Part shown: one piece after another, positions 3,181 to 18,625 of the stretch
Numbering within the stretch: the first letter of the stretch is position 1
How the letters are laid out: every line of letters begins with the position of its first letter
Source: Sulfuricella sp.
Lineage (GTDB): Bacteria > Pseudomonadota > Gammaproteobacteria > Burkholderiales > Sulfuricellaceae
NCBI GenBank assembly: GCA_028714315.1
Contig: JAQTMN010000018.1
Location: 1 to 46,029 of the forward strand
Length of the DNA stretch: 46,029 nt
Direction of reading: 5' to 3'
The notes under the pieces: model-generated
Told to the model about the DNA's origin: nothing
Database searches by the model: none
The model's input: only the letters and a program-made list of their open reading frames with translations
Position numbers and translations under genes: made by a program

Positions 3181-3268
3181 TCGCGGGCATCTCGTCCTTC
3201 CCGGCCGCGCCACGGCTGGGCGTTTGCCGGGTATAATTTACTGCTCGGCATTCAAGACCCGTTCACTC

Positions 3269-3658: not shown

Positions 3659-4125
3659 TGGCGGCGCCGCAGCCCACCGCCGCCGAAGAGCGGCTCGGCG
3701 CGGAAGCCGCGATGGCGCGGATGGGCATGACGTTCTCGCGCGACAACCGCTGGTTCATCGTCGCCGCGCAGGTTTACCTGATGCTCGCCGGCCTGGGACT
3801 GCCGATCAACGGCAGCCTGCTCAGCGATTCGGCTTCCCGCCCCGCCTTCCTCCATCTGTTCACGCTCGGCTTCCTGCTGATGATGATCTACGGCCTGGGC
3901 GGCCACATGCTGCCGCGCTTCACCGGCAACCCCATACGCGAAGGTGCTTGGCCGTGGCTTCAAATGGGGCTAGTTCATGCCGGAGCGGCGAGTTTCGTCG
4001 CCGGCTATTTCGCCGGCTGGCATGGCCTGACGGTGATGGGGGCGATCCTGGCATGGCTGTCCCTGGCCACCTTCGCCGCCAGGGTCTGGCCGGTGCTGTG
4101 GGGTACCCCCGCCGACGCCGGATAA
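3655..4125 (+). CDS. Small membrane protein, paralogue of the preceding gene
   Basis: This 156-residue protein has a 35-residue soluble N-terminus and then four predicted membrane helices. Its second helix region (LHLFTLGFLLMMIYGLGGH, then MLPRF) matches the HGHIMLLGF...LHVLPRF pattern of the gene before it, so the two look like diverged copies of one four-helix unit. The conserved histidines suggest metal or haem binding, by resemblance to NnrS and haem-copper oxidase helices; this is inference. The start overlaps the upstream stop. The second codon is also ATG, so either may be used. Confidence 0.65.
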   Translation: MMAAPQPTAAEERLGAEAAMARMGMTFSRDNRWFIVAAQVYLMLAGLGLPINGSLLSDSASRPAFLHLFTLGFLLMMIYGLGGHMLPRFTGNPIREGAWPWLQMGLVHAGAASFVAGYFAGWHGLTVMGAILAWLSLATFAARVWPVLWGTPADAG

Positions 4126-4147
4126 TCGCCTTATCCTAAAAAAGCGT

Positions 4148-4265
4148 TTAGCCACAGAGTTCACAGAGAAAAGACAATCGGTTGCCGGAATTTTCCCTCC
4201 CCCGTCAGGTGAGTGGGAGTTTCGACAAGAACCTGCGTCGTCTTGTGTTCTCCGTGACTTGAACT
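4148..4265. repeat. Degenerate intergenic inverted repeat
   Basis: The gap between two convergent genes (4126-4278) holds a left arm built on CACAGAGTTCACAGAGA and a right arm built on TCTTGTGTTCTCCGTGA. They are imperfect reverse complements separated by about 70 bases. The arms use short repeated words, as in the elements near 25.7, 28.9, 30.6, 32.5 and 40.3 kb. No terminator with a T-run was seen in the gap. Confidence 0.5.
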
Positions 4266-4278
4266 GAGGTTTTAAGGC

Positions 4279-5643
4279 TTACTGGTTGAGCCCGTAATGG
4301 TTGTTGAAATATCGGGCCAGGATTTGTTGTTCCTGATCGGTCAGCCGCGCCACATTGCGCACCCGCATATACTCCTGCATGCGCGCGATGCTCGGCGACC
4401 AGTCGCTGCGCCGCGACAACAGGAGGCGCCGCGCGTCATGGCAGCTCAGGCACTTCTGCTCCGCAAGCTTTTCCGCGCCATTCGCCGCCGGCTTGAGTCG
4501 GCCAAGACGCACTTCTTCGGCGCGCCGGCGATCCATCTCCTGTTTGCCGACGATTTGGGCCGCAAACTTGACCAGGCACACCTCGCCCTCGCGCGCCTCC
4601 CTGCCGCCGTGGCGCTCGTCCAGGTTGACCAGATGCTCGACGAACTCGCCGCTCTTCGTCAGCCGGTTGACGTTGTAGTTGTAAAACTCGGAAAAAATCA
4701 CGTCGCCGCTGCGCGTCGCCAGGATGGCAAAAGCCTCGTCGCCGTTATTCGGCCGGTCGGCGTAGACCATTTTGCCCTGGCGCGTGAAGCGGCCGATCTT
4801 GCCGCCCTCCGCGGTAGTGAACCACAGGGTGCCGTCGCGGGCCAGGGACATTTGCTGGATCGTAGTCTTGGGCGGCAACGCCGTTTCCGTCAGCTTCCCG
4901 TCTCGGTCCACCCGCCCAAGGACGCCGCGGCAATGGTCGGAGACGATCAGCCCCCCTCCCGGTAACGCCAGCAGATTGCTCGGACAGCTGTTCTCCCAGC
5001 GGAAAACCGGGGTCCAACGGCCGTCCCGCTCAATCCGCACCAGCTTGCCCACCGGGGGATCGTTCCGGCCATCGGTGTCGCCGCGCACCAGCACCGTCAC
5101 CCACACCCGGTCGCTACGGTCGATGGCGATGGAGGTCGGCCAGCCCTCGTCCAGAGGATAGCCGGTCACCCGTCCCGCCGAAATCCGGCCCACCTTCGAT
5201 ACCCACATCCGGCCGTGGCCCGCATGCTCCCCTCCCTGATCGGCCGCGTGATCCCCGGCCATCTGTGTGAACCAGCCCTCGCCTTTGGAATCCACCGCCA
5301 CCAGCACCGGGTGGCCATCTGTCGTGGCATATTCGACGATCTTGCCGTCCCTCCCCAGCCGCCCGATCTTGGCGGCATCGCTCTCCACAAACCAGACGTT
5401 GCCGCGCCTGTCGAGCGCCAGGGAAGACGGCTCGGCATTGGGGGTCGGCAGCCGGAATGCCTTGACCGTGCCGTCCGGTGCCAAGCGTGAAATGGCGTTG
5501 TTGTCGCCCTCGGTGAACCAGATACCCCCAGCCTTATCCTCGACGAAGGTATAGGAACCGAATGGGCGGCAGGCTTCCGCCTCCACCGGTACAAATCCCA
5601 CCAAGCCCGCCAGCAGCAACAAGGTCAATCCGTGCAATTTCAT
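4279..5643 (-). CDS. Periplasmic Vgb-like beta-propeller with C-terminal haem c site
   Basis: This 454-residue protein has a Sec signal peptide (about 1-24, ending VEAEA). Residues 30-360 hold about seven repeats of the type G-x-[IVL]-W-F-[TV]-x..I-x-R-[LI]-x-x-[DQ]-G, the signature of virginiamycin B lyase-like seven-bladed propellers. A haem-binding CLSCH lies at 398-402, in a short C-terminal domain reminiscent of the cytochrome part of quinohemoprotein amine dehydrogenases. Blade 3 carries a loop with H132, H140, H143, M128 and M146, a possible metal site. The gene follows the TonB receptor by 24 bases with a strong GGAGG site and is the last of the block. It is probably a periplasmic redox or binding protein. 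The Vgb lyase reaction is unlikely to apply. Confidence 0.75.
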   Translation of the reverse strand: MKLHGLTLLLLAGLVGFVPVEAEACRPFGSYTFVEDKAGGIWFTEGDNNAISRLAPDGTVKAFRLPTPNAEPSSLALDRRGNVWFVESDAAKIGRLGRDGKIVEYATTDGHPVLVAVDSKGEGWFTQMAGDHAADQGGEHAGHGRMWVSKVGRISAGRVTGYPLDEGWPTSIAIDRSDRVWVTVLVRGDTDGRNDPPVGKLVRIERDGRWTPVFRWENSCPSNLLALPGGGLIVSDHCRGVLGRVDRDGKLTETALPPKTTIQQMSLARDGTLWFTTAEGGKIGRFTRQGKMVYADRPNNGDEAFAILATRSGDVIFSEFYNYNVNRLTKSGEFVEHLVNLDERHGGREAREGEVCLVKFAAQIVGKQEMDRRRAEEVRLGRLKPAANGAEKLAEQKCLSCHDARRLLLSRRSDWSPSIARMQEYMRVRNVARLTDQEQQILARYFNNHYGLNQ

Positions 5644-5667
5644 TTTTTACCTCCCCTCCAATGCGTT

Positions 5668-7581
5668 TCAGAATTTGAATACCATTTCGACCCGGGAGAG
5701 TCTTCCCTCGGCCCGCCAGAAAAAGCCCGACATGTATTTCTTGTCGAACAGGTTGTCCACGGCAACGGTAAGATCGGCACCCCTGAAGCGTTTGGTGAGG
5801 GAAACATCGGCCACGTGATAGGGCTCCCTTTCCCAGCGATAACCTTTGCCGTCCGTTACGGTATTGTTCTCGTCCGCAAACGAAGACCCGACATACCGCA
5901 GCAGCGCCTTGGCGGTGACCCCTTCCGGCCCCCCGTAACCCAGGCCGAGGTTGAACTTGTGCCGCGGCATGTCCGGCAGCTCCTTGCCGACCAGGGCGGG
6001 ATTAGCCAGGTTTTCCGTGACTTGCGTCCGCGTGTAGGTGTAGTTGAAGAATGCCGACCAGCCGGACTCGCTCTTCCGGCCAAGCTCCAATTCCAATCCC
6101 TTGGACTCGGCCTGGCCGATGTTCTGGAACTGCTGTTTTAGAGGGATACCGTAATCGGTGATCATCACCCCGATCTTGTCTCGCCATAGCGTGCGAAAGA
6201 GTGTGATGCCCGCCTCGGCGCCCCCTCCGAGCTTCCTCTTGACACCCAGATCCCAAGTCAGGGAGCGCTGGGGTTTCAGAACCGGATTCGCCAGGAATTG
6301 GGAAGCAGGCCCGGCGTCGGAGTAATAGAGCTGGTCCGGAGTGGGGGGGACAAAACCGGTACCCACCGAACCGTTGAGCATGGTGTTTCCCGCCGCCCAG
6401 CGCAAACTCGCCTTCGGATTGAAGGCGCGCTTGGCGGTCTCCTCGCCGGTGGTGTTTTTCACTAGGGAGTCGCTGTTGAAGATGGTGGTGTCGAAGTAGC
6501 GATAGTGGTCGTACCGACCGCTCAGCTCAGCCTCCAGGCCGTTCCACGGAGCAGCCTCATAAAGCAGGTAGGCCGCCGTATTCGCCATCTTGGCGCGCAG
6601 CTGGAAATCCGTCGCGCCGCTCTGATAATCGCGGGTTTCGTAGGCGTCGGCGCTACGGCTGCCGCGCAGGCCGAGGTGCAACGCGCCGGCGTCCCCTTTT
6701 ACCACCGCCGCCACTTCCGTCTCCAGCTTGTCACCGTCGCTCGACAGGGTGCGGTTCGGCGCGAGCCCAGCCGCATCCGTCCCCGTCCCTCGATCCTTCA
6801 GCCCCTTGTCTCGGTAAGCTTCATAGCCAAGCGAGAGTTTCAATTCGGCGGTCGGCGTGGCCTTGAACGCAGACGTGAAACGCAGCGTGTCCGCGCCGTA
6901 ATCCTCCCACCAGTTCGGCCGGCCATAGAAGGATATCGACTCGAAACGCTTGAGCTGGAGCTGCGCTTCCCCCGCCTCGTTCCTGACGCCGATTTTGGCT
7001 TCCCGCGTGGTCTTCTCCGTTCGCTCGTTCTCGACCGAGACCTGGGAGGGGTAGGGTGCGAACGGCACGCGCTTGTGGCCGTGGACAACTTGGCGCTCCC
7101 CCGCCATGCCGATGCTCGCCGGCGCCGCAAGGCCCTCTGCGTTCAGCCGGGCATACCAGCTGCCGGCCGAATTGAGGCCCTGCACCCACTCGAACCGTGG
7201 CTTGTCGCCGGTCTTGCGCGTGGAGACAGCGATGGCCCCGCCCATGGCATCGGCACCGAAGCGCGCCGATGCGGCTCCGCGCAGAATATCGATGCGCTCC
7301 ACCTGGTCCGGCTTGATCTGGTTCAAATCCGTCAGGGACGACGCGAAGCCATCGACGTAAATGGCCACCCCACGAACGCCGCGCATCGTGATCGTGCCGC
7401 CGCTGTCGTCCAGGCCCACCTTCGAGCGCAGCAGCTCGATCAGATCGGCGGGCTTTTCCCTTTCCATGTCCTGGGCCGTGATGACCGTGACATTGGTGTC
7501 TTCCTTTCCCGCCGCCTCCGCCATCGCGGCGAGGGGCAGCATCAGCGCCCAGGCGCACAGCCATGCCGCGGTCGCTTTCAC
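5668..7581 (-). CDS. TonB-dependent outer-membrane receptor (no STN domain)
   Basis: This is a 637-residue receptor of the siderophore/vitamin class. Residues 1-24 form a signal peptide (WLCAWALMLPLAAMAEA). A plug domain follows (about 28-130, including ITMRGVRGVAIYVDG and ILRGAASARFGADAMGGAI), then a beta-barrel ending in ...VEMVFKF with the usual terminal Phe. It lacks the N-terminal STN domain, so it should transport without signalling through FecR. The GTG start at 7581 overlaps the TGA of the permease gene. An in-frame extension to 8073 runs through that permease in another frame and is rejected. Its place after an exporter suggests that it takes back the exported product or a metal complex of it. 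Confidence 0.85.
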   Translation of the reverse strand: MKATAAWLCAWALMLPLAAMAEAAGKEDTNVTVITAQDMEREKPADLIELLRSKVGLDDSGGTITMRGVRGVAIYVDGFASSLTDLNQIKPDQVERIDILRGAASARFGADAMGGAIAVSTRKTGDKPRFEWVQGLNSAGSWYARLNAEGLAAPASIGMAGERQVVHGHKRVPFAPYPSQVSVENERTEKTTREAKIGVRNEAGEAQLQLKRFESISFYGRPNWWEDYGADTLRFTSAFKATPTAELKLSLGYEAYRDKGLKDRGTGTDAAGLAPNRTLSSDGDKLETEVAAVVKGDAGALHLGLRGSRSADAYETRDYQSGATDFQLRAKMANTAAYLLYEAAPWNGLEAELSGRYDHYRYFDTTIFNSDSLVKNTTGEETAKRAFNPKASLRWAAGNTMLNGSVGTGFVPPTPDQLYYSDAGPASQFLANPVLKPQRSLTWDLGVKRKLGGGAEAGITLFRTLWRDKIGVMITDYGIPLKQQFQNIGQAESKGLELELGRKSESGWSAFFNYTYTRTQVTENLANPALVGKELPDMPRHKFNLGLGYGGPEGVTAKALLRYVGSSFADENNTVTDGKGYRWEREPYHVADVSLTKRFRGADLTVAVDNLFDKKYMSGFFWRAEGRLSRVEMVFKF

Positions 7582-8342
7582 CAGGTGAAATCCCTGAACC
7601 GTCTCCTGAATGCCCAGTCGGCCAGGGGGACCAATACCGCCGCCGCCAGCGAGAGCCCGGCCAGCACCATCCCGGCTTCCATGTGTGGGGAATCCGGGCG
7701 GTAGGCCGCCCGCAGCCCTTCGGCGATGTAAGTGGTGGGCAACATCAGGGCGAGGTAGCTGAAGGGCGCGCCCAACATGTCGTAGGAGTAAAAGGTGCAG
7801 CCGAAAAAGGTCATGGGCATCATCAGGAAGGAAAATACTTCCTGTCCCTTGTCGGGCGTTTCCGGAACCAGCAGCACCACCAGGGTAAAGAGGGAGAACA
7901 GCAGCGCGCCGACCGTGGCCGTCAACGCCATGTAGCCGGCATTCTGCGGCGCGAGGCCCAATATCGCCCACACCAGCGCCGCCACCACGGCGCCGCCGAT
8001 GAGACCATAGCAAAGGCCGCCGAACACCAGCGCAGCCAGAATGGCGCGCAGCGAAACCGGCGCGAGCAGCCACTCCTCCATGGTGCGGAAGTAGTAGCCG
8101 GAGATCACGCCGCCGCCAACGGTGACGAAGGGGCCGGTAATCAGGGAGATGGCGACGATGCCCGGCGCCATGATCCCGGCATAGCCGCCGTTCTGGGCGG
8201 GCAGCATCCCGCCCACCACGTGGCCGAACACGAAGAGGTAGACCGCCGGCTGAACCAGCATCCTCACGGCGGTAAGCCTGGCGGCGGCAATGTCCGCGGT
8301 CGCGGCCCGCCGCAACAGCGCCAGCATGAATTTCACAGGCAT
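7578..8342 (-). CDS. ABC-2 type transporter permease
   Basis: This 254-residue inner-membrane permease of the ABC-2 (DrrB/NodJ-like) export family has about six hydrophobic segments (25-45, 58-82, 98-128, 136-160, 170-188, 222-243). The family-typical LPTTYIAEGLRAA near 201-213 precedes the last helix. It pairs with the ATPase immediately upstream, with which it overlaps by 10 bases, and its stop overlaps the GTG of the receptor downstream. ABC-2 exporters move drugs, polysaccharides and some peptides. Given the neighbours, the modified Cys-rich peptide is the likely substrate; this is inference. Confidence 0.85.
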   Translation of the reverse strand: MPVKFMLALLRRAATADIAAARLTAVRMLVQPAVYLFVFGHVVGGMLPAQNGGYAGIMAPGIVAISLITGPFVTVGGGVISGYYFRTMEEWLLAPVSLRAILAALVFGGLCYGLIGGAVVAALVWAILGLAPQNAGYMALTATVGALLFSLFTLVVLLVPETPDKGQEVFSFLMMPMTFFGCTFYSYDMLGAPFSYLALMLPTTYIAEGLRAAYRPDSPHMEAGMVLAGLSLAAAVLVPLADWAFRRRFRDFTW

Positions 8343-9079
8343 CCTCCTACCGCGCGCCTGAACGCCGCCGCCACCCCGCCCTGCTGCGCCGAGGCCTGCC
8401 CGGCCCAGTGCGCCAAGTCGGCCACTGTCCCCTCGGCAACCACGCGGCCGGAGTGAAGAATGCCGATCCGGTCGCATAGCCGCTCCGCCTCTTCGAGGTA
8501 GTGGGTAGAGAGAAAAACCGTGCCGCCGTTGCGCCGGAACTCCCCGACCCTGTCCCAGAGCAGGGCGCGGACATCGGGATCGAGGCCGGCAGTGGGCTCG
8601 TCCAGGATCAGCAGCTCGGGTCCGGTGAGAAACGCCTTGGCCAGCATCGCCTTGCGCTTGGTGCCGCCGGACAGGCGCAGTACCGATTCGGTCGCTTTCC
8701 CTTCCAGCCCGAGCAGGGCGAGCCATTCATCCACCAGCGGGGCGTAGATCTTTTTCGCCATGCCGGCATAACGGCAATGGAAGATCAGGTTCTGCCGCAC
8801 GTCGAGATAGGTATCGAGATTGTTCTCCTGGGGCACCACGCCGATGCGCCGCTTGATTTCGGCCGGGCGCTCCATCGTGTCCAGATCGAAAATGCGGATG
8901 CTGCCGCTGGTCGGGCGCAGCAGCGTCGCCAGCATCTTGATGACCGAGGTCTTGCCCGCTCCGTTGAGGCCGAGCAATCCGTACACTTCCCCGTGCCGGA
9001 CGCATATCGACAGTCCTTCCACCGCCTTCACGCCGGAGGGATAGACGAATGCGACGTTGTCGGCGGACACCGCGGCCAC
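8333..9079 (-). CDS. ABC transporter ATP-binding protein
   Basis: This 248-residue ATPase of the ABC-2 exporter class has Walker A GLNGAGKT (37-44), Q-loop VVPQENN (Q84), signature LSGGT (136-140), Walker B LLILDEP (157-162) and switch H193 in STHYLEEAERL. The start is taken as the GTG at 9079, two bases after the stop of the upstream radical SAM gene, with GGGAGG overlapping that stop. In-frame codons upstream lie inside the radical SAM gene. It forms an exporter with the next gene. No peptidase domain of the C39 type is fused, so any leader removal must be done by another protein. Confidence 0.88.
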   Translation of the reverse strand: MAAVSADNVAFVYPSGVKAVEGLSICVRHGEVYGLLGLNGAGKTSVIKMLATLLRPTSGSIRIFDLDTMERPAEIKRRIGVVPQENNLDTYLDVRQNLIFHCRYAGMAKKIYAPLVDEWLALLGLEGKATESVLRLSGGTKRKAMLAKAFLTGPELLILDEPTAGLDPDVRALLWDRVGEFRRNGGTVFLSTHYLEEAERLCDRIGILHSGRVVAEGTVADLAHWAGQASAQQGGVAAAFRRAVGGCL

Positions 9080-9081
9080 GG

Positions 9082-10206
9082 CTAGCCGCCTCCCAGAAAG
9101 GCCGTCAAACGGGCTTTTCCGGCCTCGTCCGCCAGGGCGTGTTCGAGAAGGGACGCCGTTTCCCTGGCGATTTTCCTGGTGAAGGCACAGTGGCTGGCCG
9201 AGGGCTCGGCGATATCGCCGCAGCGCAGCAGCGACTGGGCCGGGCATTCGCCGCCGCAATCGTAGCGGACGTTGCAGCCGGCGCACTTCGGGCGGCGCTC
9301 CACGGTATTGCCCTTCAGCCGCGCGGCGACGTCGCGGAGTGCCTCGCCGGGAAAATCGCGGTCATGGACGCTGCCCATGCAAAAGGCATCCGTGCCGACG
9401 AAATGGTCGCAGGGGTAGACGCCCCCGTCCGCCGCCACCGCCAAAACACCCTCCCCCGCGGCGCATGGATAAAGGCGCCGCTCGCCCAGCAGCCGGTGGG
9501 CGGCGACCTTGCAGAGCTCATTCGCCACCACCGGTTCCCTTCCCGCCATGATGCTTTCCAGGGACGCGCGGTTGAGCCGGCCGTAGCCAGCCGTCCAGGC
9601 GCGCAGGCTATCGCCCCGCCATTCCGTGGCTGCGGCCGCCGGGGCGATGCGCAGGGAAACGGCGCCGAGGCCGTCGAGGTGGCGCGCCGCCTCTTCCAGG
9701 CCGGCGGCATGCTGTTCCATCACCGTTCCCCGCAGGGCAAAGGGAATGCCAGCCTTCCGCAGGCGCCGGATATTCGCCAGCACCGTGCCGTGCACGTCGC
9801 CGCCACCATCCTTGAACCGCCGGCCTGCGTTGGTGACGGCGGCCCCTCCGTCGAGGCTGATCGCGATGTGGCGCACGTGCGCCGCGAGGAACGCCAGCCG
9901 CTCGTCGTCGAGCAGGGTGCCGTTGGTGGTGAGGCAATAGACGAAGCGCACGTCCCGCCGTGCCGCGAGCTGCTGCCCGTAGGCCACGGCATCCTTCATC
10001 AGCTCGAAGTTCAGCAACGGCTCGCCGCCGAAGAAGGAAACCGCCAGGGTTTTGCCCGCCAGCGGCAACAGCCGGTCGAAGGCGGCGCGCATCGTCTCCG
10101 GCTTCATCAGGGAGGCGCCCCGACCAAAATCCCCGCCCTGGGCATAGCAGTAGCCGCAGGCGAGATTGCAGTCCTGGGAGATCACCAGGTAGAGATTCCT
10201 AAGCAT
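9082..10206 (-). CDS. Radical SAM/SPASM protein (third maturase, short form)
   Basis: This 374-residue radical SAM enzyme has its CX3CX2C cluster (C13, C17, C20) almost at the N-terminus, so it lacks the N-terminal precursor-binding-like domain of the other two. The SAM-binding FFGGEPLLNF follows near residue 58. The C-terminal half carries SPASM cysteines for auxiliary iron-sulphur clusters (LYPCAAGEG, GVYPCDHF, CAGCNVRYDCGGEC and a final SHC). SPASM enzymes include anaerobic sulfatase maturases, PqqE and thioether-forming peptide maturases. The start overlaps the preceding gene by 8 bases. It could act on the 41-residue peptide or mature another local protein. Confidence 0.85.
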   Translation of the reverse strand: MLRNLYLVISQDCNLACGYCYAQGGDFGRGASLMKPETMRAAFDRLLPLAGKTLAVSFFGGEPLLNFELMKDAVAYGQQLAARRDVRFVYCLTTNGTLLDDERLAFLAAHVRHIAISLDGGAAVTNAGRRFKDGGGDVHGTVLANIRRLRKAGIPFALRGTVMEQHAAGLEEAARHLDGLGAVSLRIAPAAAATEWRGDSLRAWTAGYGRLNRASLESIMAGREPVVANELCKVAAHRLLGERRLYPCAAGEGVLAVAADGGVYPCDHFVGTDAFCMGSVHDRDFPGEALRDVAARLKGNTVERRPKCAGCNVRYDCGGECPAQSLLRCGDIAEPSASHCAFTRKIARETASLLEHALADEAGKARLTAFLGGG

Positions 10207-11557
10207 GGGCGACGTCTCCGGCGGCGGCGATGAATTTCCGGACGTTGGCGTACAGGCGCTGCCGCGTTTCCGCCTGCTCCATCGCCGCGAGAAAGCGCCG
10301 GATCGCCGCCTCGGCGCAGCGCTTTGTCAGCAGGCAGTGGCGCGGGTCGGGTCGGAATACGCTGCCGGTGGCAAAATAGGCATGGGCGTAGCAGGAGCCG
10401 CCACAGAAATAACGCGCCCAGCATTTGGCGCATTCGCCGATGTTGTCCACCTCCAGGCCGGCAAAAACCGACCATACCCGGCGGTAGTCCTCGCTGTCGG
10501 TCTCGGTTACCTTTCCCATGTAGAACTGCGGCACCCCCACCAAGCCGTGGCAGGCGTAGACGGAGCCATCGGCGGTCACCGCCAGGTCCCGGCCGGCGTT
10601 GCAGTGGCGGCGGAGCTTGCGGCGGGTGAGCAGGTTCGCGACGACGTTGACGGCTTCCTCGGTGGGGTTTTCTTCCAGCGCGCGATCCACCGCATCGGCG
10701 CTCAACGCCTCGTGCTGGCGGACGAAGTTTTCGAACTGCTCGGCGCCGATGGCGGCGGGGTTGTCCGGCGGCGTGCCGGCCGGCGTCAGGATGGCGCCGG
10801 CCGTGCCCAGCCCGCGCAGGTGCTGGAGGGATTCGGTGTAGAACGGGACGGCATCTCCGCCGAGGGTGCCCTTGATCGTCAGCCTGGCCTTGCACCGGGC
10901 CTGGAGCCGCCCGATGTTGCCGACGATCCGGTCGTAGGAGCCGCTGGCGGCGCGGCGCCGGTATAGGTCATTGATCTCTTTCGCCCCGTCCAGGCTCACC
11001 GTGACCGAGGAGAAATGCTCATCCAGGAACGCGAGGATTTCCCGGTTGAGCACGGTGCCGTTGGTGGTGACGCCGAAGGAAATTTTCACCCCCCGCTCCG
11101 CCTCCAATTGGCGACCGATCTCCACCGCCTTTTTGACGGTGCGGAAATTGAGCAGGGGCTCGCCGCCGTAAAAGGCGACGGCGTATTGCCGGCCCGGCTC
11201 GACGCAAAAGCGGCGGAAGGCGGCCTCGGCCACTTCCGGCGCCATCATCATGCGGGGGTTGGCCACACGCCCGCGGTCGTTGTAACAGTAGGCGCAATCG
11301 AGATTGCAGTCGTGGGCGACGTAAAGGCAGAGGCTGTCGGTCTCGCCCCAGGGCTTGGGGGTCGCGGGCGTGGCCGCGGCGCGCCGCGCCTCTTCGGAAA
11401 CCACCGGCTCCAGTTCCGGAGGCAGGGAGCCGTTGCCATCCAGAAAGACGCGCACCGCCTCCGCCTGACCGGTGGGCAGCCGGAACAGCCGGTAGCTCAA
11501 CGGGAAGAACAGGACCGCGTTTCCGCCCCCCTCGATCAAGTGGAAATCCCTAAACAC
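10199..11557 (-). CDS. Radical SAM/SPASM peptide maturase (second)
   Basis: This 452-residue protein has an N-terminal domain of about 70 residues beginning MFRDFHLIEG, similar in layout to the precursor-recognition-like domain of SCIFF- and QhpD-type maturases. The radical SAM cluster follows (C84, C88, C91 in CNLDCAYC), then FYGGEPLLNF. A SPASM domain has CNAGRDLAVTADGSVYACHG and CAKCWARYFCGGSC plus a distal HC. Such enzymes use S-adenosylmethionine to make a 5'-deoxyadenosyl radical and commonly join Cys sulphur to another residue of a peptide. The gene overlaps both radical SAM neighbours by 8 bases, which implies coupled translation and perhaps a multi-enzyme assembly. Confidence 0.87.
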   Translation of the reverse strand: MFRDFHLIEGGGNAVLFFPLSYRLFRLPTGQAEAVRVFLDGNGSLPPELEPVVSEEARRAAATPATPKPWGETDSLCLYVAHDCNLDCAYCYNDRGRVANPRMMMAPEVAEAAFRRFCVEPGRQYAVAFYGGEPLLNFRTVKKAVEIGRQLEAERGVKISFGVTTNGTVLNREILAFLDEHFSSVTVSLDGAKEINDLYRRRAASGSYDRIVGNIGRLQARCKARLTIKGTLGGDAVPFYTESLQHLRGLGTAGAILTPAGTPPDNPAAIGAEQFENFVRQHEALSADAVDRALEENPTEEAVNVVANLLTRRKLRRHCNAGRDLAVTADGSVYACHGLVGVPQFYMGKVTETDSEDYRRVWSVFAGLEVDNIGECAKCWARYFCGGSCYAHAYFATGSVFRPDPRHCLLTKRCAEAAIRRFLAAMEQAETRQRLYANVRKFIAAAGDVAHA

Positions 11558-12980
11558 GGGCTGTTTCCACTCCCTTGCTGCCGTAGCGGCGGGACACGGC
11601 GGTGCCTAGGCGATCCATCAGCGCCTGCCGGGTGTCGGCCGACTGCACCATGGCGACGATATCGGGCAGGATTTCCTCGATCACGGTCTTGATATAGAGG
11701 CAGTGGCGCTCCACCGGCGGGTCGATGTCGCCGTATTGGGCGTGGGAATACTTGGCGCAGGAGCCGCCGCAGAGATACCGCGCCCAGCAGTCGCGGCAGC
11801 CTTCCCGGTTGTCCACGGTGGCGTCGATGAAGCGTTGACGGATCGCCCGGTAGCGCTCGCTTTTCCGCAGGCCGGGGTCGCCGACGTTGCCCATCTTGAA
11901 CTCATCCGTGCCGACGAAGCGGTGGCAGGGGTAGACGTCGCCCTCGGCGGTCACCGCCAGCAGGTTGGTGCCGGCGTTGCAGTGGTAGAGGGCATGGCTG
12001 CGGGAAATGAAATAGAACAGGATGTAGAAAGGATATTCGAAGGCCACCGGCTGGTCGCCTTCGATGAAGCTGCGCAGCCCCTTGCGGTTGATTTCGACGA
12101 TCTGCGCGATGAAGCGCCGGTATTGGCGGTCGTCGAGATAAAGCGGGTGGTCCTCGGGCACATCCACGTTCACCACGCCGATACCGCCCGGCTTGAAGGA
12201 TTCCAGGTGGTCATAAATTTCCGCCACCCGGTCGTAGCCGGCGCGGGTGACGATGGTGCGGAACGCCCAGTTGAAACGCCCGTCTTCCGTGAACTTGCGG
12301 ATGTTTTCGGTCGCCGAGGAATAGACGCTGTCGCCGCACTTGCTCATGCGCTGGCCGTCGTTGAGGTCTTCCGGGCCGTCCAGACTGAAGGTGACATCGT
12401 CGATATGGTCGCGGAAAAACCGTGCGATCTCTTCGTTATGGAAAGTGCCGTTGGTGACGATGCCGAGGGAGACATCCGCCTTGCCTTCTTCGCGGAAGCG
12501 CTCGCTCAACTCGGCGGTTTGCTTCATGGTGCGGAAGTTCATCAGCGGCTCGCCGCCGAAGAAAGTGACGAAATGCTTGCCCTCGCCGCCGCCGAAGAAC
12601 GTATCGAAGGTGCGGTTCAGCGTCCCCTCGTCCATCCTGCCGCGTTGGCCGTATTCCCCCTCCCCGCCGTAGCAGTAGGCGCACTTCAAATTGCACTCCT
12701 GGGACAGGAACAGATAAAGCCCGGCGACTTTTTCGCCGATATCCTCCGGTGCGCGCAGCACCGTGGCGGGAGGCGCCTTGCGGCAATGGTTGTCCATGAA
12801 GGTGCATGCCTCCTCCCAGCGCTGCTCCTCGAACTCCCCCGAAAGGAGCTCTCCGCACTCCACCCGTTTCAGTACCGCGCGCGTATCGTCGTCGATCTTG
12901 AACACCGTGACCGGCTGGGCGAGAAACAGATATGCCTGGCCGTCCTTGGAAAAAACGTGGAAATTCCTTGCTTCCATCAT
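11550..12980 (-). CDS. Radical SAM/SPASM peptide maturase (first)
   Basis: This 476-residue protein is the first maturase after the Cys-rich peptide. Residues 1-80 form an N-terminal domain (RNFHVFSKDGQAYLFLA) like that of thioether-forming peptide maturases. The radical SAM cluster is C96, C100, C103 (CNLKCAYC), with FFGGEPLMNF at about 140-149. The SPASM region has YHCNAGTNLLAVTAEGDVYP, a following CHRFVG, then CRDCWARYLCGGSC and a last Cys in RHCLY. An AAAGGG site precedes the start; M1 and M2 are adjacent, so either may be used. It is closest in organisation to the second maturase, and the two probably arose by duplication. The 72-base gap to the peptide gene contains no obvious terminator. 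Confidence 0.87.
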   Translation of the reverse strand: MMEARNFHVFSKDGQAYLFLAQPVTVFKIDDDTRAVLKRVECGELLSGEFEEQRWEEACTFMDNHCRKAPPATVLRAPEDIGEKVAGLYLFLSQECNLKCAYCYGGEGEYGQRGRMDEGTLNRTFDTFFGGGEGKHFVTFFGGEPLMNFRTMKQTAELSERFREEGKADVSLGIVTNGTFHNEEIARFFRDHIDDVTFSLDGPEDLNDGQRMSKCGDSVYSSATENIRKFTEDGRFNWAFRTIVTRAGYDRVAEIYDHLESFKPGGIGVVNVDVPEDHPLYLDDRQYRRFIAQIVEINRKGLRSFIEGDQPVAFEYPFYILFYFISRSHALYHCNAGTNLLAVTAEGDVYPCHRFVGTDEFKMGNVGDPGLRKSERYRAIRQRFIDATVDNREGCRDCWARYLCGGSCAKYSHAQYGDIDPPVERHCLYIKTVIEEILPDIVAMVQSADTRQALMDRLGTAVSRRYGSKGVETARV

Positions 12981-13052
12981 GCCGCGCCCTTTAAAAAAGT
13001 TGCCCCGCCATTTCTTTGGGTTACATCTTATTGCTATCGGTGTCCGAGATTC

Positions 13053-13178
13053 CTACACCCTTGGCCCGCAACCGCACATCCGTCCGCCCTGGGTGCCGCA
13101 GCAGGCGCACAGGGTCATTTCGTCAAACGCTTCGTTGCAACCTTCGAGAGATTCGAAAACGATTTCTTCAATTTCCAT
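13053..13178 (-). CDS. 41-residue Cys-rich peptide, probable RiPP precursor
   Basis: This short frame begins at an ATG with AAGGA seven bases upstream and ends in TAG. Residues 1-20 are acidic (seven Glu, one Asp) and leader-like (MEIEEIVFESLEG). The C-terminal half is Cys/Gly-rich with C24, C26, C27, C35 and C37 (LCACCGTQGG, then MCGCGPRV) plus C14 in the leader part. There is no signal peptide, which fits modification in the cytoplasm and export by the ABC pair. It lies between the signalling receptor and three SPASM genes on the same strand. I recognise no named family. Thioether crosslinks (sacti- or ranthipeptide-like) or metal binding through CxCC and CxC are the plausible fates. Confidence 0.78.
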   Translation of the reverse strand: MEIEEIVFESLEGCNEAFDEMTLCACCGTQGGRMCGCGPRV

Positions 13179-13241
13179 GGTGTTTCCTTTCGAGTAAAAA
13201 CTACGTTGTGAAATGGCCGGGCAATAATCAAGACATAGAGA

Positions 13242-15638
13242 TCAGAAACGCACATTGAGACCAAGCCACCAGTTCCGGCCGTCTCCAAACGCGCGATAGG
13301 CTTCCTTGCCCGCTCCAACCGGAACGAGCCACTTCTGCTCGACATATTCCTTGTCAAACAGGTTGTTGACGGCTAATGACAGCTCCGCATCGCGCGCCAG
13401 CGCGCCTAGCGGCATGCGCTTGCCGACTTTCAGGTCGGCGACGAAATAGCCTGGGGCAAGGGCATCCGGCTTGTTCTCCATCGTTCCGTCGAAGTACCTG
13501 TCGCCGACATAGCGGCCGGAAAGGCGCGCCGTCCAGCCCGCCGAAGGCGCATAGATCACGCCAAGGCTGAGCTTATGCTTGGCGACGAGGTTGAGCCGCT
13601 TGCCCTCGGAGGCGGGCTGAGAAGGATTGCCGTCGATCCTGGAGTCGCTATAGGTGTAGTTGAAATACGGCCGCCAAGCCGATGCGGTCTTGCCCTCCAA
13701 GGCGATCTCGAAACCGTTCACCTTTACGGCCGAGACGTTCACGTACTGAGTGCAGCCGACCCGTTGCAGAGCCTCGATCTTGTCCTGGTAATCAGTATGA
13801 AAAAGCGCTGCACGGGCTGACAGCCCAGCCCATTCCTGGTTAAGGCCGATTTCGGTCGAGGCGGAATGCTCGGCATTCAGGTTTGGGCTGTTGCATGTCG
13901 CATTGCTCCTGTAGCGGAGCCCATTGAGGGCCGGCAGGTAGGCCGTGCCATAGGACGCGTAAAGGGACGTGCGCTCTGCCAGCTTGTAACGCAGCCCGAA
14001 GCGGGGATTGAAGACGCTATCGGTCGAGTCGGGATCCCGGCGGGTGGTATCGGTACCATAGTTGTCCCAGGAATAACTCGTGTTGTCGTAGAGCCTGTAA
14101 CGGTCGTACCTGCCCCCGATATTCAGGAGTGCGTTTTCCGAAACGCGGATTTCGTCCTGGACATACAGGCCGACAATTCGGGTTTTCGTGCTTATCTCGC
14201 TCCGGGCATAGTAATCCCATCCCTGCTGGGAAGTCAGCGGCACTGCCGTATCCTCTGTTTCTTTCTGCTTGCCGGTGGTGTGGGAAAGACCGAGGGTCAA
14301 GAGGTTTCCCTGGGTGAGGCGCAGATTGGCCTGGGCTTCTAAGGTGTCGGCGAATTCGTCCCGCTGCCCGGTGATGTAACGGGTAAAATCGGTCCCATCG
14401 CCCAACATCAGGCCATCCCATTTGAGGTTTTCCTTGATGGTCGCGCTCAGATACCTGAACTTCAGATCGCCGAGCGCTCCGAGTTCCAGCTTGTAGCCGA
14501 GATCATAAAGGGCGCCTTCGCGGCCAAAGCGGTAATTGGGCCGGCCGCCGACAAACGCGGAGTCAATATCGTAGTGGCGGACGCCGAAGGTGATCGCCTG
14601 ATTATCCGAGGGATAGATGCCGAGCTGGGCGCCGAACTTGCGGTCACGCCAGTCACGCCCGGCAAGATCCTGTTGCCCCCAGAAATAGGGTTTCGGCTCG
14701 GCAATGAAACCGTCGGTCTGGAAATCGCTGGCGGAAAGCCGGAAATCGATCTTTTCCGACGACCCGCCTACCACTGCCCGCGCGGACCGCGCGTTATGCG
14801 AGCCGAGGCCGGCCTCCGCTTCACCGCCGGGTTCCCCGGTCCAGCGTTTGGTGAGAACGTTGATCACGCCACCGGCGGCATTCGGACCGTAGAGCGAGGA
14901 GGCAGGGCCACGCACCACTTCGATGCGGTCGATCTCGCCGGAGCCGGCGAAATCGAGCCCGGCTCCTTTGGGGGCAAGCACCATCGGCTCCACGGGCATG
15001 CCATCCACCAGCAACTGGGTGGTCTGGCCGGCATAGCTGCCGCCCATCCCGCGCAGCATGACCATGCCGGCGCCCCCGCCGGCCTCTGACTTTACATCGA
15101 CACCTTCCACATTGCGCAGCAAATCTTCGAGCTTCACGACTTGCTGGCTTTTAATATCCTCGGCCGTGATGACCGAAACGCTGGCGGGAACCTCGGTGAT
15201 CAGTCTTTCAGTTCTGGTGGCCGTTACCACAACTTCCGGCAAAAGTTCGGAGTGCCGCGCCGCGGCAACGGTCTCTGGCTTTTTTTCGCCCTCCCGCTGA
15301 ACGGTAAAGGAGTTCGCGTCCGTCGTCCGATAAGTGAAGCGCGTTCCCTTGAGCAGGCGCTTGAGCGCCTCCTCCGGCGTGTAGCTCCCGCTGACGCCCT
15401 CGGTGCGCGCGCCTTGCAGGGCATCGGTGGCAAACAGCAACTGGGAATCGGTCTGGCCGGCCAAGACCTTGAGCGCCGAGGAAAGCTCCTGGGGCGGGAT
15501 GTTCACCACCGCCTTGCCGGGGTCGGCAAAGGCAGGATTCAGCGACGCGGCCATCAGCACAGAGATGCCGGCCGCGCGGGAAGACGAGATCAGCCTGCGC
15601 GCTGGCGGACGCAACGCCCATTTCGCTTTCTTTTTCAT
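13242..15638 (-). CDS. TonB-dependent transducer with STN domain (FecA-like)
   Basis: This 798-residue outer-membrane receptor has an N-terminal basic region and signal peptide (about 1-38, ending NPAFA). An STN domain (about 40-112, VVNIPPQELSSALKVLAG) contacts FecR-type regulators. A TonB-box-like stretch (EVVVTATR) is followed by a plug (about 140-260, IEVVRGPASSLYGPNAAGG) and a 22-stranded barrel ending LGLNVRF. The ATG at 15638 has AGGGAGA six bases upstream; an in-frame start at 15725 gives an unlikely leader. The order sigma, anti-sigma, receptor matches Fec-type cell-surface signalling, where ligand binding outside releases the sigma factor. The ligand is unknown; the next gene suggests the mature peptide or its metal complex. 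Confidence 0.88.
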   Translation of the reverse strand: MKKKAKWALRPPARRLISSSRAAGISVLMAASLNPAFADPGKAVVNIPPQELSSALKVLAGQTDSQLLFATDALQGARTEGVSGSYTPEEALKRLLKGTRFTYRTTDANSFTVQREGEKKPETVAAARHSELLPEVVVTATRTERLITEVPASVSVITAEDIKSQQVVKLEDLLRNVEGVDVKSEAGGGAGMVMLRGMGGSYAGQTTQLLVDGMPVEPMVLAPKGAGLDFAGSGEIDRIEVVRGPASSLYGPNAAGGVINVLTKRWTGEPGGEAEAGLGSHNARSARAVVGGSSEKIDFRLSASDFQTDGFIAEPKPYFWGQQDLAGRDWRDRKFGAQLGIYPSDNQAITFGVRHYDIDSAFVGGRPNYRFGREGALYDLGYKLELGALGDLKFRYLSATIKENLKWDGLMLGDGTDFTRYITGQRDEFADTLEAQANLRLTQGNLLTLGLSHTTGKQKETEDTAVPLTSQQGWDYYARSEISTKTRIVGLYVQDEIRVSENALLNIGGRYDRYRLYDNTSYSWDNYGTDTTRRDPDSTDSVFNPRFGLRYKLAERTSLYASYGTAYLPALNGLRYRSNATCNSPNLNAEHSASTEIGLNQEWAGLSARAALFHTDYQDKIEALQRVGCTQYVNVSAVKVNGFEIALEGKTASAWRPYFNYTYSDSRIDGNPSQPASEGKRLNLVAKHKLSLGVIYAPSAGWTARLSGRYVGDRYFDGTMENKPDALAPGYFVADLKVGKRMPLGALARDAELSLAVNNLFDKEYVEQKWLVPVGAGKEAYRAFGDGRNWWLGLNVRF

Positions 15639-15705
15639 TTTTTTCTCCCTGGGGCGTTTTGGATAAAAAGGTGCCCTTATCCTGTATAAGACGCGTCCGG
15701 GAGAA

Positions 15706-15757
15706 GAGACCTGATGTCTCGGCAAAAATATTATTTGCCAGGAAGAGGGATTTCCCT
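15706..15757 (-). promoter_or_regulatory. Cluster of three short palindromes before the receptor
   Basis: The 143-base gap between the anti-sigma gene and the receptor holds GAGAC-N5-GTCTC (15706-15720), GGCAAA-N7-TTTGCC (15721-15739) and the perfect AGGGATTTCCCT (15746-15757), side by side. Read on the minus strand, the last contains GGAAAT, the same hexamer as the -35 of E. coli fecA, but I see no convincing matching -10. This is a candidate regulatory region for the receptor and the genes after it. Confidence 0.4.
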
Positions 15758-15781
15758 TGGAGAGGTGCTACAGGGTAGTGC

Positions 15782-16807
15782 TCAGAAGGCCTGGGGCAGG
15801 CGTGGCGGAGTGCGCTCGTCGAGACTGGAGAGGACGGTTGCGTTGCCGGCGCGCGCCGCCTTGATCGGCAGCACCTGCTGGAGCGCCCAAAGCAGGCCGT
15901 CCAGGTCGCTGGCGTTGAATACGCCGCTGACCTTGAGGGTATTCAGGTTTGAATCGGCGATGACGATCTTCCGGTCGTGATAACGGCCCAGTTCCCGAAC
16001 CACGTCCCTAAGCGAGGTGCCATCGAAAACCAGTTTGCCGTTCTGCCAGGCCGTCACGGTCTTTTCATCGGCGCTCCTGACGGCGGATATCTTCCGATCG
16101 GAGTAGGCGGCTTGCTGCCCCTTGAGCAGAGCCCGGCTGACGCCGGGATCGCCGGCTTTTCCACCCAGCGAGATTTCGACTTCGCCATCCAGCACGGCCA
16201 CGACAACGCGCTCCTCGTCCCGGTAGACGTCGAATCGGGTGCCGATATCGCGAATGGTGCCGCTGCCGGCTCGCACCTCGAACGGCCGCGCTTCCTCGTG
16301 TGCCACGGCAAACAGGGCCTCGCCCCTTTCCACCTTCACGAGTCGCAGGCCCGCCGACATCTCCACGGTCAGCCGGGTATCGGTATTGAGTTGCGCCAGC
16401 GAGCCGTCCGGCAGCGTGATGCTTTTCTGCTCACCCTTCGCGGTAGCATAGGAGTACGCTGGCGGACTCTGGACGGCGTGCCAGCCGATGCCGACCGCAG
16501 CCGCCAGCACGGCGGCGGCCCAGTGCCACCGGCCGAATGCGGGGAACCAGCCCGGAAACCGGGTGCGCCCAGTCTGTGTCGCCGGCGGAAGCGCGCTCTT
16601 CAGTCCGTCCAGCTCTTCCCACATCAGGCAGAACTGCTCGTATTCCCTTCGGTGCGCCTCGTTCTCTGACAGCCAGTCTTCGAATCTTCTCCTGTCGTTC
16701 TCGGAACAGTTCTCAGCGCGCAGCCGCGCAAACCAATATGCGGCGCGCTCCCTCGCCGCGAGGTCTTGCAGGAAACCGAAATCGTCCGTCGCCGCCATGG
16801 AACCCAT
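15782..16807 (-). CDS. fecR: FecR-type anti-sigma factor / transmembrane regulator
   Basis: This 341-residue inner-membrane protein relays the receptor signal to the sigma factor. The cytoplasmic part (about 10-75, AAYWFARLRAENCSENDRRR) is the typical FecR N-terminal domain. One membrane helix follows (about 95-112, WAAAVLAAAVGIGW). The periplasmic FecR domain spans about 120-225 (ATAKGEQKSITLPDGSLAQL). The C-terminus has an STN-like segment (TSLRDVVRELGRYHDRKIV) expected to meet the receptor. The ATG at 16807 is used, with AAGG close by; the ATG nine bases later is equally possible, and the TTG at 16885 is less likely. The gene follows the sigma gene by about 98 bases. Confidence 0.87.
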   Translation of the reverse strand: MGSMAATDDFGFLQDLAARERAAYWFARLRAENCSENDRRRFEDWLSENEAHRREYEQFCLMWEELDGLKSALPPATQTGRTRFPGWFPAFGRWHWAAAVLAAAVGIGWHAVQSPPAYSYATAKGEQKSITLPDGSLAQLNTDTRLTVEMSAGLRLVKVERGEALFAVAHEEARPFEVRAGSGTIRDIGTRFDVYRDEERVVVAVLDGEVEISLGGKAGDPGVSRALLKGQQAAYSDRKISAVRSADEKTVTAWQNGKLVFDGTSLRDVVRELGRYHDRKIVIADSNLNTLKVSGVFNASDLDGLLWALQQVLPIKAARAGNATVLSSLDERTPPRLPQAF

Positions 16808-16905
16808 TGCCTTAATGTCGCGAAATGGCACAAACCGACGTCGAATTTCCGACAACTCGCTCCCGTTGTCAAGCAGGAGCGGCAAGGCGAAGCGCCGGGA
16901 AGCGC

Positions 16906-17415
16906 TCAGTCCGCCCGTTCCAGGCGCCCTCGGCAGTAGGCGATGGCCTTGATGATGTGCTTTTCCACCATGTTTTTCGAAATGCCCATCTCACTGGCGA
17001 TTTCCGCATAGCTCCGGTTTTCGAACTTGTGCCTGACGAATGCGTGCCGGCATTTTGGCGGGAGCTCGGCGACAGCTTCCCGCAACAGCGCCAGCCGCTG
17101 CTGGGCGTAGACAACCGACTCCGGCCCTGGTGCTTCGGAAGGCAAGTTCTCAGCCATGTCAACCCCGTCCATTTGCTCCGCCCTTGGCCGGTCCGTCCTG
17201 AAAGAGTCCACCGTCAGATTGAGCGCCGTCCTGAAGAGAAAGCCGCGCGGATGGCGGAGCTGATAGCCGTCTTCGAGCGCCAGCATGCGGGTGAAGGCTT
17301 CCTGGGCGATCTCGGCCGCCTCGTCCCGGCTGCGCAGCCTATAGGACAGGAACCGGCAAAGTTCGTCGTAGCATTCCCTGTAGATGCTGTTGATCTGTTT
17401 TCTTATTTCGGACAT
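16906..17415 (-). CDS. fecI: ECF sigma factor, FecI type
   Basis: This 169-residue extracytoplasmic-function sigma factor has region 2 (about 8-75, with DEAAEIAQEAFTRML and HPRGFLFRTALNLTVDSFR) and region 4 (about 115-165, LPPKCRHAFVRHKFENRSYA, then MGISKNMVEKHI). Held by the FecR protein, it would direct RNA polymerase to the receptor and downstream genes. The start at 17415 (MSEIRKQ) aligns with the usual FecI N-terminus and has GAGG just upstream; an in-frame extension to 17511 adds 32 residues of low plausibility. It heads the accessory block and is transcribed away from xthA's 3' end. Confidence 0.88.
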   Translation of the reverse strand: MSEIRKQINSIYRECYDELCRFLSYRLRSRDEAAEIAQEAFTRMLALEDGYQLRHPRGFLFRTALNLTVDSFRTDRPRAEQMDGVDMAENLPSEAPGPESVVYAQQRLALLREAVAELPPKCRHAFVRHKFENRSYAEIASEMGISKNMVEKHIIKAIAYCRGRLERAD

Positions 17416-17848
17416 ACGGCCTCGGCGGCTGACATCGGGCCTTCTTCCACCTTCCCAGCGGAACAGCGGCCCCAAGAGCAGCAATATACAAACTTTCTTG
17501 ACGCCAGGCAATAAAGTTTATTAAAAACAAAACGTTATAGTGTCATATGGCACAGTATTGGGCGAAAGCGCACGGTAGCGGAAGGTTCGCGAGCCCGCTC
17601 CGGCAAGAATCACTTTGACGGCTAGTAGCCAACAACGCCGAGATGCGAGCCGGCTTACGTCGGGCATCTTGGGTAGGGAAGCGCCGTTTGACGGGAGGTG
17701 CCTTGGCTTGCGGGTATTCAGATTATCGGGCGCGCGAATGACCCCGGCGTCCGGATAGGTCTGGACGAGTTGCATACGGATGCCCATTTTTTACGAACTG
17801 GTTATTAGAGAATTCCAATCGTATCCGATGGCTATCGCGCTTCCCGCC
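17416..17848. other. Intergenic region upstream of the sigma gene
   Basis: These 433 bases separate xthA from the sigma gene, both on the minus strand. The part next to the sigma gene (about 17505-17560) is AT-rich and carries the promoter-like region listed separately. The rest (about 17570-17848) shows no convincing gene. An 88-codon open frame on the minus strand (17521-17787) has no ribosome site or recognisable protein character. No xthA terminator with a T-run was found. Confidence 0.55.
17534..17553 (-). promoter_or_regulatory. Candidate promoter and operator of the sigma gene
   Basis: On the minus strand TATAAC (17534-17539) could be a -10 box. It abuts the 14-bp near-palindrome GTGTCATATGGCAC (17540-17553), which fills the spacer region. 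The -35 is weak, as expected for a promoter that needs an activator or is under a repressor. The dyad has a TGTG-N8-CACT spacing loosely like CRP-family sites. No perfect Fur box was seen. Confidence 0.4.
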
Positions 17849-18625
17849 CTAATCCAGGTTAGTATCGATCTCCGCCACCACCGGGGTGTGATCGGAGGGG
17901 CGCTCCAGCTTGCGAGGCGCCGCATCGATGCGGCAGACGGTGCAGTGTCGGGCGAGGGCCTCACTCAACAGGATGTGGTCTATCCTCAGGCCCATGTTGC
18001 GGCGGAAGGAGTTCATCCGGTAATCCCACCAGGAATAGGACTTCTCCGGCTGCTCGAACAGGCGGAAACTGTCGGCCAGCCCAAGCTGCCGCAGACTCCG
18101 AAAGGCGTCCCGCTCCGGCGGGCTGACCAGCACCTGGCCCTCCCAGGCTTGCGGGTCGTGGACGTCGCACGCTTCGGGCGCGATGTTGAAATCCCCCAGC
18201 AGCGCGAGGTTCGGATGGCGCGCCAGCTCCTCGCCGAGCCAGGCCGTCAGCGCCTTTAGCCAGCCAAGCTTGTACTGGTATTTGTCCGAGTCCACGCTCT
18301 GGCCGTTGGGCACGTAGACGTTGACGATCCGCACGCCGGCGATGGTGGTGGCGAGCACCCGCTTCTGCGCGTCGGTGAAACCGGGAATCGCCGTGACGGT
18401 GTCCGCGCCGGCGAGCCTGCTCAGGATCGCCACGCCGTTGTAGGTCTTCTGCCCGCTGAACAGGGTCTGGTAGCCGGCCGCGGCGAGCTCCGCCGCCGGA
18501 AAGTTCGCATCCTCCTGCTTGGTCTCCTGCAGGCACAACACGTCCGGCTGATGGACCGCGAGCCAGTCCAGCACGTGAGGCAGGCGAACCTTGAGGGAAT
18601 TGACGTTCCAGGTGGCAATCTTCAT
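17849..18625 (-). CDS. xthA: Exodeoxyribonuclease III
   Basis: The 258-residue AP endonuclease / 3'-5' exonuclease acts in base-excision repair. Visible signatures are the start MKIATWNVNSLKVR, the metal-binding E34 in CLQETK, NVYVPNG, GDFNIAP, and the catalytic SDHTPV near the end. The length is normal for the family. The ATG at 18625 is chosen over an upstream in-frame codon at 18646 because the MKIATWNVNS start is conserved. A promoter lies 31-61 bases upstream. The gene is divergent from yceH. Confidence 0.95.
   Translation of the reverse strand: MKIATWNVNSLKVRLPHVLDWLAVHQPDVLCLQETKQEDANFPAAELAAAGYQTLFSGQKTYNGVAILSRLAGADTVTAIPGFTDAQKRVLATTIAGVRIVNVYVPNGQSVDSDKYQYKLGWLKALTAWLGEELARHPNLALLGDFNIAPEACDVHDPQAWEGQVLVSPPERDAFRSLRQLGLADSFRLFEQPEKSYSWWDYRMNSFRRNMGLRIDHILLSEALARHCTVCRIDAAPRKLERPSDHTPVVAEIDTNLD

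Follow-up and report, generated by a model that had tools for sequence, protein, structure and literature searches.

A conserved Sulfuricella gene block joining Fec-type signalling to a Cys-rich peptide and three radical SAM/SPASM enzymes, most likely a RiPP system with a feedback loop

A 46,029-nt stretch of Sulfuricella sp. DNA (contig JAQTMN010000018.1 of assembly GCA_028714315.1; hereafter the window) carries a block of 11 genes at 4279-17415. The genes are tightly arranged on the minus strand, from the ATG of a sigma factor gene at 17415 to a last stop at 4279. They encode, in order, an extracytoplasmic function (ECF) sigma factor, FecR, a TonB-dependent receptor with an STN domain, a Cys-rich peptide, three radical SAM/SPASM proteins (rS1, rS2, and rS3), an ABC exporter ATPase, a permease, a second TonB-dependent receptor, and a propeller-cytochrome. 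We read the block as a system for a ribosomally synthesized and post-translationally modified peptide (RiPP) with a feedback loop, most likely serving the acquisition of a thiophilic metal, and give this reading a probability of about 0.55. That it is a RiPP system is well supported. The initial annotation had listed 11 same-strand genes in this order, with 8-base overlaps between the SPASM genes, and had named their domains and motifs. All 11 frames were found on the minus strand, and the overlaps lie at 11550-11557 (rS1/rS2) and 10199-10206 (rS2/rS3). The domain names were borne out by Pfam (10 proteins, the ATPase being left out) and NCBIfam (all 11, best 25 models per protein). Neither database had a curated family that fitted. 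The broader interpretation offered with that annotation, that the cell makes, exports, senses, and re-imports the peptide, was partly supported by the results below.

The peptide gene runs from an ATG at 13178, preceded by GAAAGGAAACACC, to a stop codon at 13055-13053, and encodes 41 residues with six cysteines. It had been proposed as a Cys-rich peptide from its frame; the frame was confirmed and is conserved in five genomes. No family in NCBIfam or Pfam matched it. Compared with the window, the peptide was 100% identical in G007, 85% in G055, and 68% in G283. The core CACCGTQGGxxCGCGP and scattered leader residues were the same in all three distinct versions; one of the six cysteines, C14, was Phe in G283. 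Between the window and G283, identity was 68% for the peptide, 63% for rS1, 46% for rS2, and 48% for rS3. Against G283, dS of the peptide gene was saturated. In the comparison with G055 its dN/dS was 0.106 (dS 0.79). This was the lowest value among the eight of 11 genes tested (ATPase, permease, and second receptor left out); the other seven gave 0.18 to 0.38 against G055. These comparisons indicate that the peptide is a conserved gene product under selection.

The distribution of the system was analyzed in 1,914 genome look-ups, including the window's own genome, in overlapping sets. A peptide search over 200 relatives at E 0.01 matched five genomes, of which three were real (G000, G007, and G055). 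The weak matches in G035 (38%) and G159 (36%) were dropped as chance, because they contained stop codons and no rS1 was found at E 1e-3 in the surrounding 13 and 14 kb. An rS1 profile matched 3/369 genomes of the class, 2/143 relatives of G283, 3/399 of the order, and 1/398 of the phylum, the last being the window's own genome only. A peptide profile matched 1/4 genomes in the family of G055, 2/2 in the family of G283, and 1/398 in the phylum around G283. Some misses are possible, since only some candidates per genome were scored in the large sets (four in the class, order, and phylum rS1 scans). A contig scan with two N-terminal rS1 patterns matched 61 stretches, one of which encodes a relative (L015, the contig of L007). 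No rS1 match was found in plasmids at E 1e-40, and the peptide core pattern was not matched in viral contigs. The system is thus rare in the sampled genomes; it was found in G000, G007, G055, G283, and G406.

Within these genomes the parts were conserved together. In L006 (same genus) and L007 (Gallionellaceae UBA2239), all 11 genes were matched in the same order. All 11 were also matched in L013, from a third family. The G406 assembly is fragmented, with rS1, rS2, and a partial rS3 on one contig (L014) and the peptide on a different one. The peptide was encoded in all five genomes that have the SPASM trio, adjoining it in four. The Fec trio, exporter, second receptor, and propeller-cytochrome were kept with the peptide in all four loci readable as a whole (window, L006, L007, and L013). 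A genome search for the peptide beside SPASM genes had been suggested at the outset, with SPASM trios lacking a short Cys-rich frame named as the refuting case; that case was seen in none of the five genomes. A short conserved precursor gene together with modifying enzymes, a general mark of a RiPP cluster, was present in 5/5, side by side in four.

The block is a discrete insertion at window 4125-17849. It sits between orf3655, which ends at 4125, and xth at 17849. In five genus-mates (L037-L041), xth directly follows the flanking orfs, or directly follows ntrC in L039, and none of six block genes used as queries was matched in the ~10-kb stretches at this site. In G055, which belongs to another family, ntrC and xth likewise flank the block. 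The block may be old and often lost, or recombination through the shared flanks may have moved it.

The first three genes have the makings of Fec-type surface signalling, with domain matches to an ECF sigma factor, FecR, and an STN-domain receptor. The sequence TCAGGK-N15-CGTCKTA, which we take to resemble an ECF promoter, was found before the STN receptor gene in all four readable loci, with an A/T tract upstream and one exact match per locus. It ends 46-48 nt before the receptor ATG (48 nt in the window). When other spacings of the half-sites from 10 to 21 were allowed, the sole extra match had a spacing of 20, in L013. Upstream of the sigma gene there is a dyad instead, at 17540-17553 (minus strand), which reads GTGCCATATGACAC in the window and G007 and has a matching dyad, CGTGCCAATTGGCACG, in G055. 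It may be the site of an unnamed regulator. As the dyad and not the promoter motif precedes sigma, sigma and FecR are probably transcribed apart from the other genes. Such a layout is what one would expect of a sigma factor that drives the receptor gene and everything behind it. TonB was encoded in all four genomes searched.

Two 15-nt inverted arms enclose the peptide gene and no other gene (Table 1). One arm lies 31 nt upstream of the peptide ATG and the other 38 nt downstream of its stop. The initial annotation had overlooked this conserved stem around the peptide gene. The arms were present in 5/5 loci with loops of 195-201 nt, and three of these loci have a T run after the 3' arm. They were paired by a script and a hand-made alignment, since MAFFT misaligned the 3' arm of G283. 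With shuffled spacers, the observed pairing was matched by 7, 1, 0, 0, and 0 of 2000 in the five loci. Arms paired better within a lineage than across lineages. In the three distinct rows of the alignment, 7/15 pairs had changed on both sides and 2/45 cells were unpaired. The covariation score was reached by 0/500 shuffles, and the count of further pair types by 22/500. When the stretch from arm to arm was folded, the stem was part of the minimum-energy structure in 5/5 loci. These results suggested that the arms are likely to form an mRNA structure. An Rfam search of 4000-18000 gave a single match, which scored 15.6 against a gathering score of 40 and was rejected.

The three maturase candidates were compared with known families. 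The CxxxCxxC motif and the seven SPASM cysteines, which are also features of the SCIFF/ranthipeptide maturases, did not vary among the aligned sequences of rS1 (4), rS2 (5), and rS3 (4). The SPASM domain of rS2 scored under the Pfam cut-off (16.2 versus 21.5 bits) and over that of NCBIfam TIGR04085 (57.9 versus 27). Among the best 25 NCBIfam models per protein, the nearest maturase models were SCIFF, PapB, nif11-type, and QhpD, and none of the three proteins reached the cut-off of a named maturase family. In the test with the SCIFF/ranthipeptide models TIGR03974 and NF047865, the SCIFF scores of rS1, rS2, and rS3 were 177.6, 229.5, and 186.9 against a cut-off of 425; the PapB scores were 209.7, 191.9, and 201.3 against 340. 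The nearest solved structure to both rS1 and rS2 (6.6e-49 for rS2) was 5wgg, labelled 'Radical SAM domain protein', which is CteB (PMC7876137). With respect to a RiPP recognition element, N-terminal extensions of about 85 residues in rS1 and 75 in rS2 were found. The rS1 extension is spanned by the QhpD and nif11-maturase models, whereas that of rS2 lies outside its SCIFF, nif11, and QhpD matches. SCIFF maturases and QhpD form thioethers (PMC8326336), and QhpD forms Cys-Asp/Glu links (PMC7876137). By analogy, the chemistry here is most likely of the SCIFF/ranthipeptide/QhpD kind, making cysteine thioethers, and thioether formation on this peptide is plausible. Residues C24 and T29 of the peptide are invariant and five residues apart. 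In CteA, the thioether joins Cys32 to Thr37, or to Thr34 per later work (PMC8326336); the likeness in spacing is a hint only.

The propeller-cytochrome has a propeller of the Vgb type (Pfam Vgb_lyase; structures 2z2n and 2qc5 are of the same family) and a CxxCH haem motif that was invariant in 4/4 homologues. A signal-like N-terminus, judged by eye, suggests that it is probably exported. In Vgb itself the catalytic residue is His270, in the last blade. In a manual alignment the corresponding residue was Phe305, and Phe was found in 4/4 homologues, so Vgb lyase activity is unlikely and was rejected as a function. Compared with virginiamycin B lyase, the protein thus has the same propeller family, an added haem domain, and Phe in place of His. 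A periplasmic role in redox chemistry or binding would fit better. Identity to the window was 52% in G055 and 44% in G283 for the propeller protein, 52% and 43% for the STN receptor, and 69% and 45% for the second receptor. Invariant residues included M66, M113, M538, and H541 in the second receptor and M214, H281, H614, and H688 in the STN receptor. No site pointing to iron or copper was seen by eye; no Fur-box scan was made.

In the mechanism that we propose, an extracellular ligand would be sensed by the ECF sigma/FecR pair together with the STN receptor, after which the sigma factor would transcribe one long unit from the promoter before the STN gene, from that receptor through the propeller-cytochrome. 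In this unit the stem would most likely set an excess of precursor over enzymes, through mRNA processing, protection, or partial termination. The most likely task of the SPASM maturases would be to crosslink the CACCGTQGGxxCGCGP core through thioether or other C-S bonds, and the product would be exported by the ABC-2 exporter. Metal-loaded or free product would be the ligand of both receptors, and the propeller-cytochrome would act in the periplasm on the re-imported complex. Use of the product as a metallophore is plausible. In its fullest form, the proposal describes a new class, in which a thiol-rich chelator bridged by SPASM-made thioethers would be secreted, sensed through Fec signalling, and re-imported, with a haem propeller releasing the metal and a stem setting precursor dosage. 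We hold this full form tentatively, at somewhat below even odds.

The closest analogy is group I methanobactin, a copper scavenger. Its operon contains mbnI, R, T, A, B, C, M, P, and H, which cover MbnI, MbnR, MbnT with an N-terminal signalling domain, the precursor, modifying enzymes, an exporter, and a haem protein (PMC3621798). The block shares with it a FecIRA-like trio, a short Cys-containing precursor, enzymes, an exporter, and a c-type haem protein per locus. The arrangement of trio, exporter, and receptor around a precursor is therefore that of group I, as an architectural analogy only. The methanobactin enzymes MbnB/MbnC, as described there, are unrelated to the three SPASM enzymes here; the exporter is ABC-2 here and MATE in methanobactin; and a second receptor and a Vgb-like propeller-cytochrome stand here in contrast to MbnH/MbnP. 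The two precursors were not alike by eye, and no MbnB/MbnC or MbnA match was present among the best 25 NCBIfam models of each of the 11 proteins or among the Pfam matches. We take the block to work like group I methanobactin; as no MbnB/MbnC was matched, it is not a member.

Other known systems share some of the parts. Like SCIFF/ranthipeptide systems (CteA/CteB, freyrasin; PMC8326336), the block has a peptide with six cysteines beside a SPASM maturase, and SCIFF and 5wgg are the best model and structure for rS2. It differs in three maturases that are under the SCIFF/PapB cut-offs, a peptide without a family, Fec signalling, and two TonB receptors. The quinohemoprotein amine dehydrogenase (QHNDH; qhp) operon (PMC7876137) likewise has a QhpD-like maturase, an ABC exporter, a c-haem part, and a small Cys-rich chain, whereas the block has FecIR and TonB receptors, a peptide without Trp for cysteine tryptophylquinone (CTQ), no recognised QhpE or QhpG, and a propeller of the Vgb type fused to the haem part. 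Fec, Fpv, and Pup signalling systems also combine an ECF sigma factor, FecR, an STN receptor, and a promoter motif before the receptor gene; here, unlike in those systems, the downstream unit encodes a RiPP pathway. The initial annotation had stated that its author knew of no described system with this combination. Consistent with this, our searches of open-licence full-text literature turned up no radical SAM RiPP that combines Fec signalling with TonB receptors, no metallophore made by radical SAM enzymes, and no account of a precursor-enclosing stem as a RiPP dosage device.

Among the alternatives, the one that survives best, though we consider it unlikely, is that the modified peptide is a signal (pheromone) measured by the STN receptor, the cluster being an autoinduction loop without metal. 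The ECF-type promoter motif would put receptor and precursor in one feed-forward unit, no metal regulator was recognised in the block, and a quorum-sensing role is listed for SCIFF peptides in a table (PMC8326336). However, it is hard to see why a pure signal would need a second uptake receptor and a haem propeller, and PMC3621798 describes FecIRA-like trios in the uptake of siderophores, haem, and citrate.

A little less probable still is a structural role, in which the peptide is the crosslinked small subunit of a periplasmic redox enzyme, like QhpC, with the propeller-cytochrome as the large part and the receptors importing substrate. The QhpD model is matched by rS1 nearly end to end (5-435 on 1-441 of 467), and the haem domain at residues 385-453 of the propeller protein gave a weak match to NCBIfam QH_alpha (7e-4). 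In QHNDH, the subunit receives its crosslinks in the cytoplasm and an ABC transporter exports it (PMC7876137). Yet both the QhpD and QH_alpha scores were under the curated cut-offs, and neither a protease like QhpE nor a flavoprotein like QhpG was recognised among the block genes. Trp was present in 0/3 distinct peptide versions, so CTQ cannot form, and a CTQ enzyme was ruled out.

An antimicrobial RiPP, with the exporter giving self-protection and the receptors playing a separate nutritional role, appears improbable. DrrAB-like exporters often move antibiotics. Radical SAM RiPPs include antimicrobials (PMC8326336). Against this, the core is invariant across three families while receptors and propeller diverge (43-69% identity), and no immunity protein was recognised. 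Most doubtful of all is an explanation that concerns the stem only, namely that the arms belong to a small mobile element as its end repeat instead of forming an mRNA structure: inverted arms do enclose one gene, and the window has slightly more near matches to the arm than chance would give, but no transposase is among the block genes, the two arms are the only exact matches in the window's genome (two further sites differ by one base), and the arms have changed together in three lineages at a constant position.

Several observations weigh against the metallophore RiPP reading itself. The system is known from just five genomes in three families, and in L013 sigma and FecR point away from the remaining genes. 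With one mismatch allowed, the promoter motif had two matches in the window versus 0.09 in shuffles, a count that is descriptive because the motif was derived from the same four loci, and the second match (7332-7359, one mismatch) is on the other strand. The covariation of the stem comes from three distinct rows, which are few. Near matches to the arm with up to 3 mismatches numbered 10 in the window against 5.28 by chance. Simple scans of 12850-13400 found no ordinary terminator and no sigma-70 promoter, and the absence of the terminator counts among these points. Among the genes of the block we recognised no leader peptidase, no inner-membrane importer, and no metal-specific regulator. A conserved Cys/His/Met cluster was absent from both receptor alignments; this is neutral on the metal, since the chelator itself would hold it.

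Table 1. Positions of the genes and elements of the block in the window
Feature	Position	Strand	Support
ECF sigma factor, FecI type, 169 residues	16906..17415	-	NCBIfam TIGR02937 over cut-off; FecI model 3.2e-19, below cut-off
FecR-type anti-sigma/regulator, start ATG 16798 or further upstream	15782..16798	-	Pfam FecR, DUF4880, and FecR_C over cut-offs
Predicted ECF-type promoter TCAGGT-N15-CGTCTTA	15687..15714	-	Exact match, same place and spacing in L006, L007, and L013
TonB-dependent signalling receptor, N-terminal STN domain	13242..15638	-	Pfam STN, Plug, and barrel over cut-offs
5' arm of long-range stem	13210..13224	-	Inverted repeat in 5/5 loci
41-residue Cys-rich precursor peptide MEIEEIVFESLEGCNEAFDEMTLCACCGTQGGRMCGCGPRV	13053..13178	-	Present in 5 genomes; dN/dS 0.106 versus G055
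3' arm of long-range stem, then T run	13000..13014	-	Inverted repeat in 5/5 loci
Radical SAM/SPASM maturase 1 (rS1), N-terminal extension	11550..12980	-	Pfam Radical_SAM and SPASM over cut-offs
Radical SAM/SPASM maturase 2 (rS2)	10199..11557	-	Best model SCIFF maturase, 7.1e-68, below cut-off
Radical SAM/SPASM maturase 3 (rS3), without N-terminal extension	9082..10206	-	NCBIfam, Pfam
ABC exporter ATPase, DrrA/NodI-like	8333..9079	-	NCBIfam drrA 3.8e-67, below cut-off
ABC-2 type permease	7578..8342	-	Pfam ABC2_membrane over cut-off
Second TonB-dependent receptor, without STN, start GTG 7581 or ATG 7542	5668..7581	-	Pfam Plug and barrel over cut-offs
Vgb-like beta-propeller, C-terminal c-type haem motif KCLSCH	4279..5643	-	Pfam Vgb_lyase 3.3e-43, over cut-off

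The sigma start at ATG 17415 is backed by the G007 and G055 homologues and was preferred over TTG 17511, because the longer TTG frame is frame-shifted in L006. Probable starts are near 9079 for the ATPase, 8342 for the permease, and 7581 or 7542 for the second receptor; the outermost starts of their open reading frames were not favoured. Beside the block, 3224-4125 holds two small orfs, the first weakly COX1-like (1e-7, below cut-off) and the second without a Pfam match at 1e-5. Further away, 42190-45771 encodes a protein with FecR and LysM domains and, behind it, a CHASE2 histidine kinase.

The function of the cluster is directly testable, since it comes with a fixed 41-residue substrate, three separable maturases, an ECF-type promoter that can serve as its own reporter, and a defined site of insertion. 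If the proposed reading is true, RiPP precursor dosage could be set by a stem around the precursor gene alone, and radical SAM chemistry would have evolved a secreted, re-imported peptide in parallel with methanobactin.

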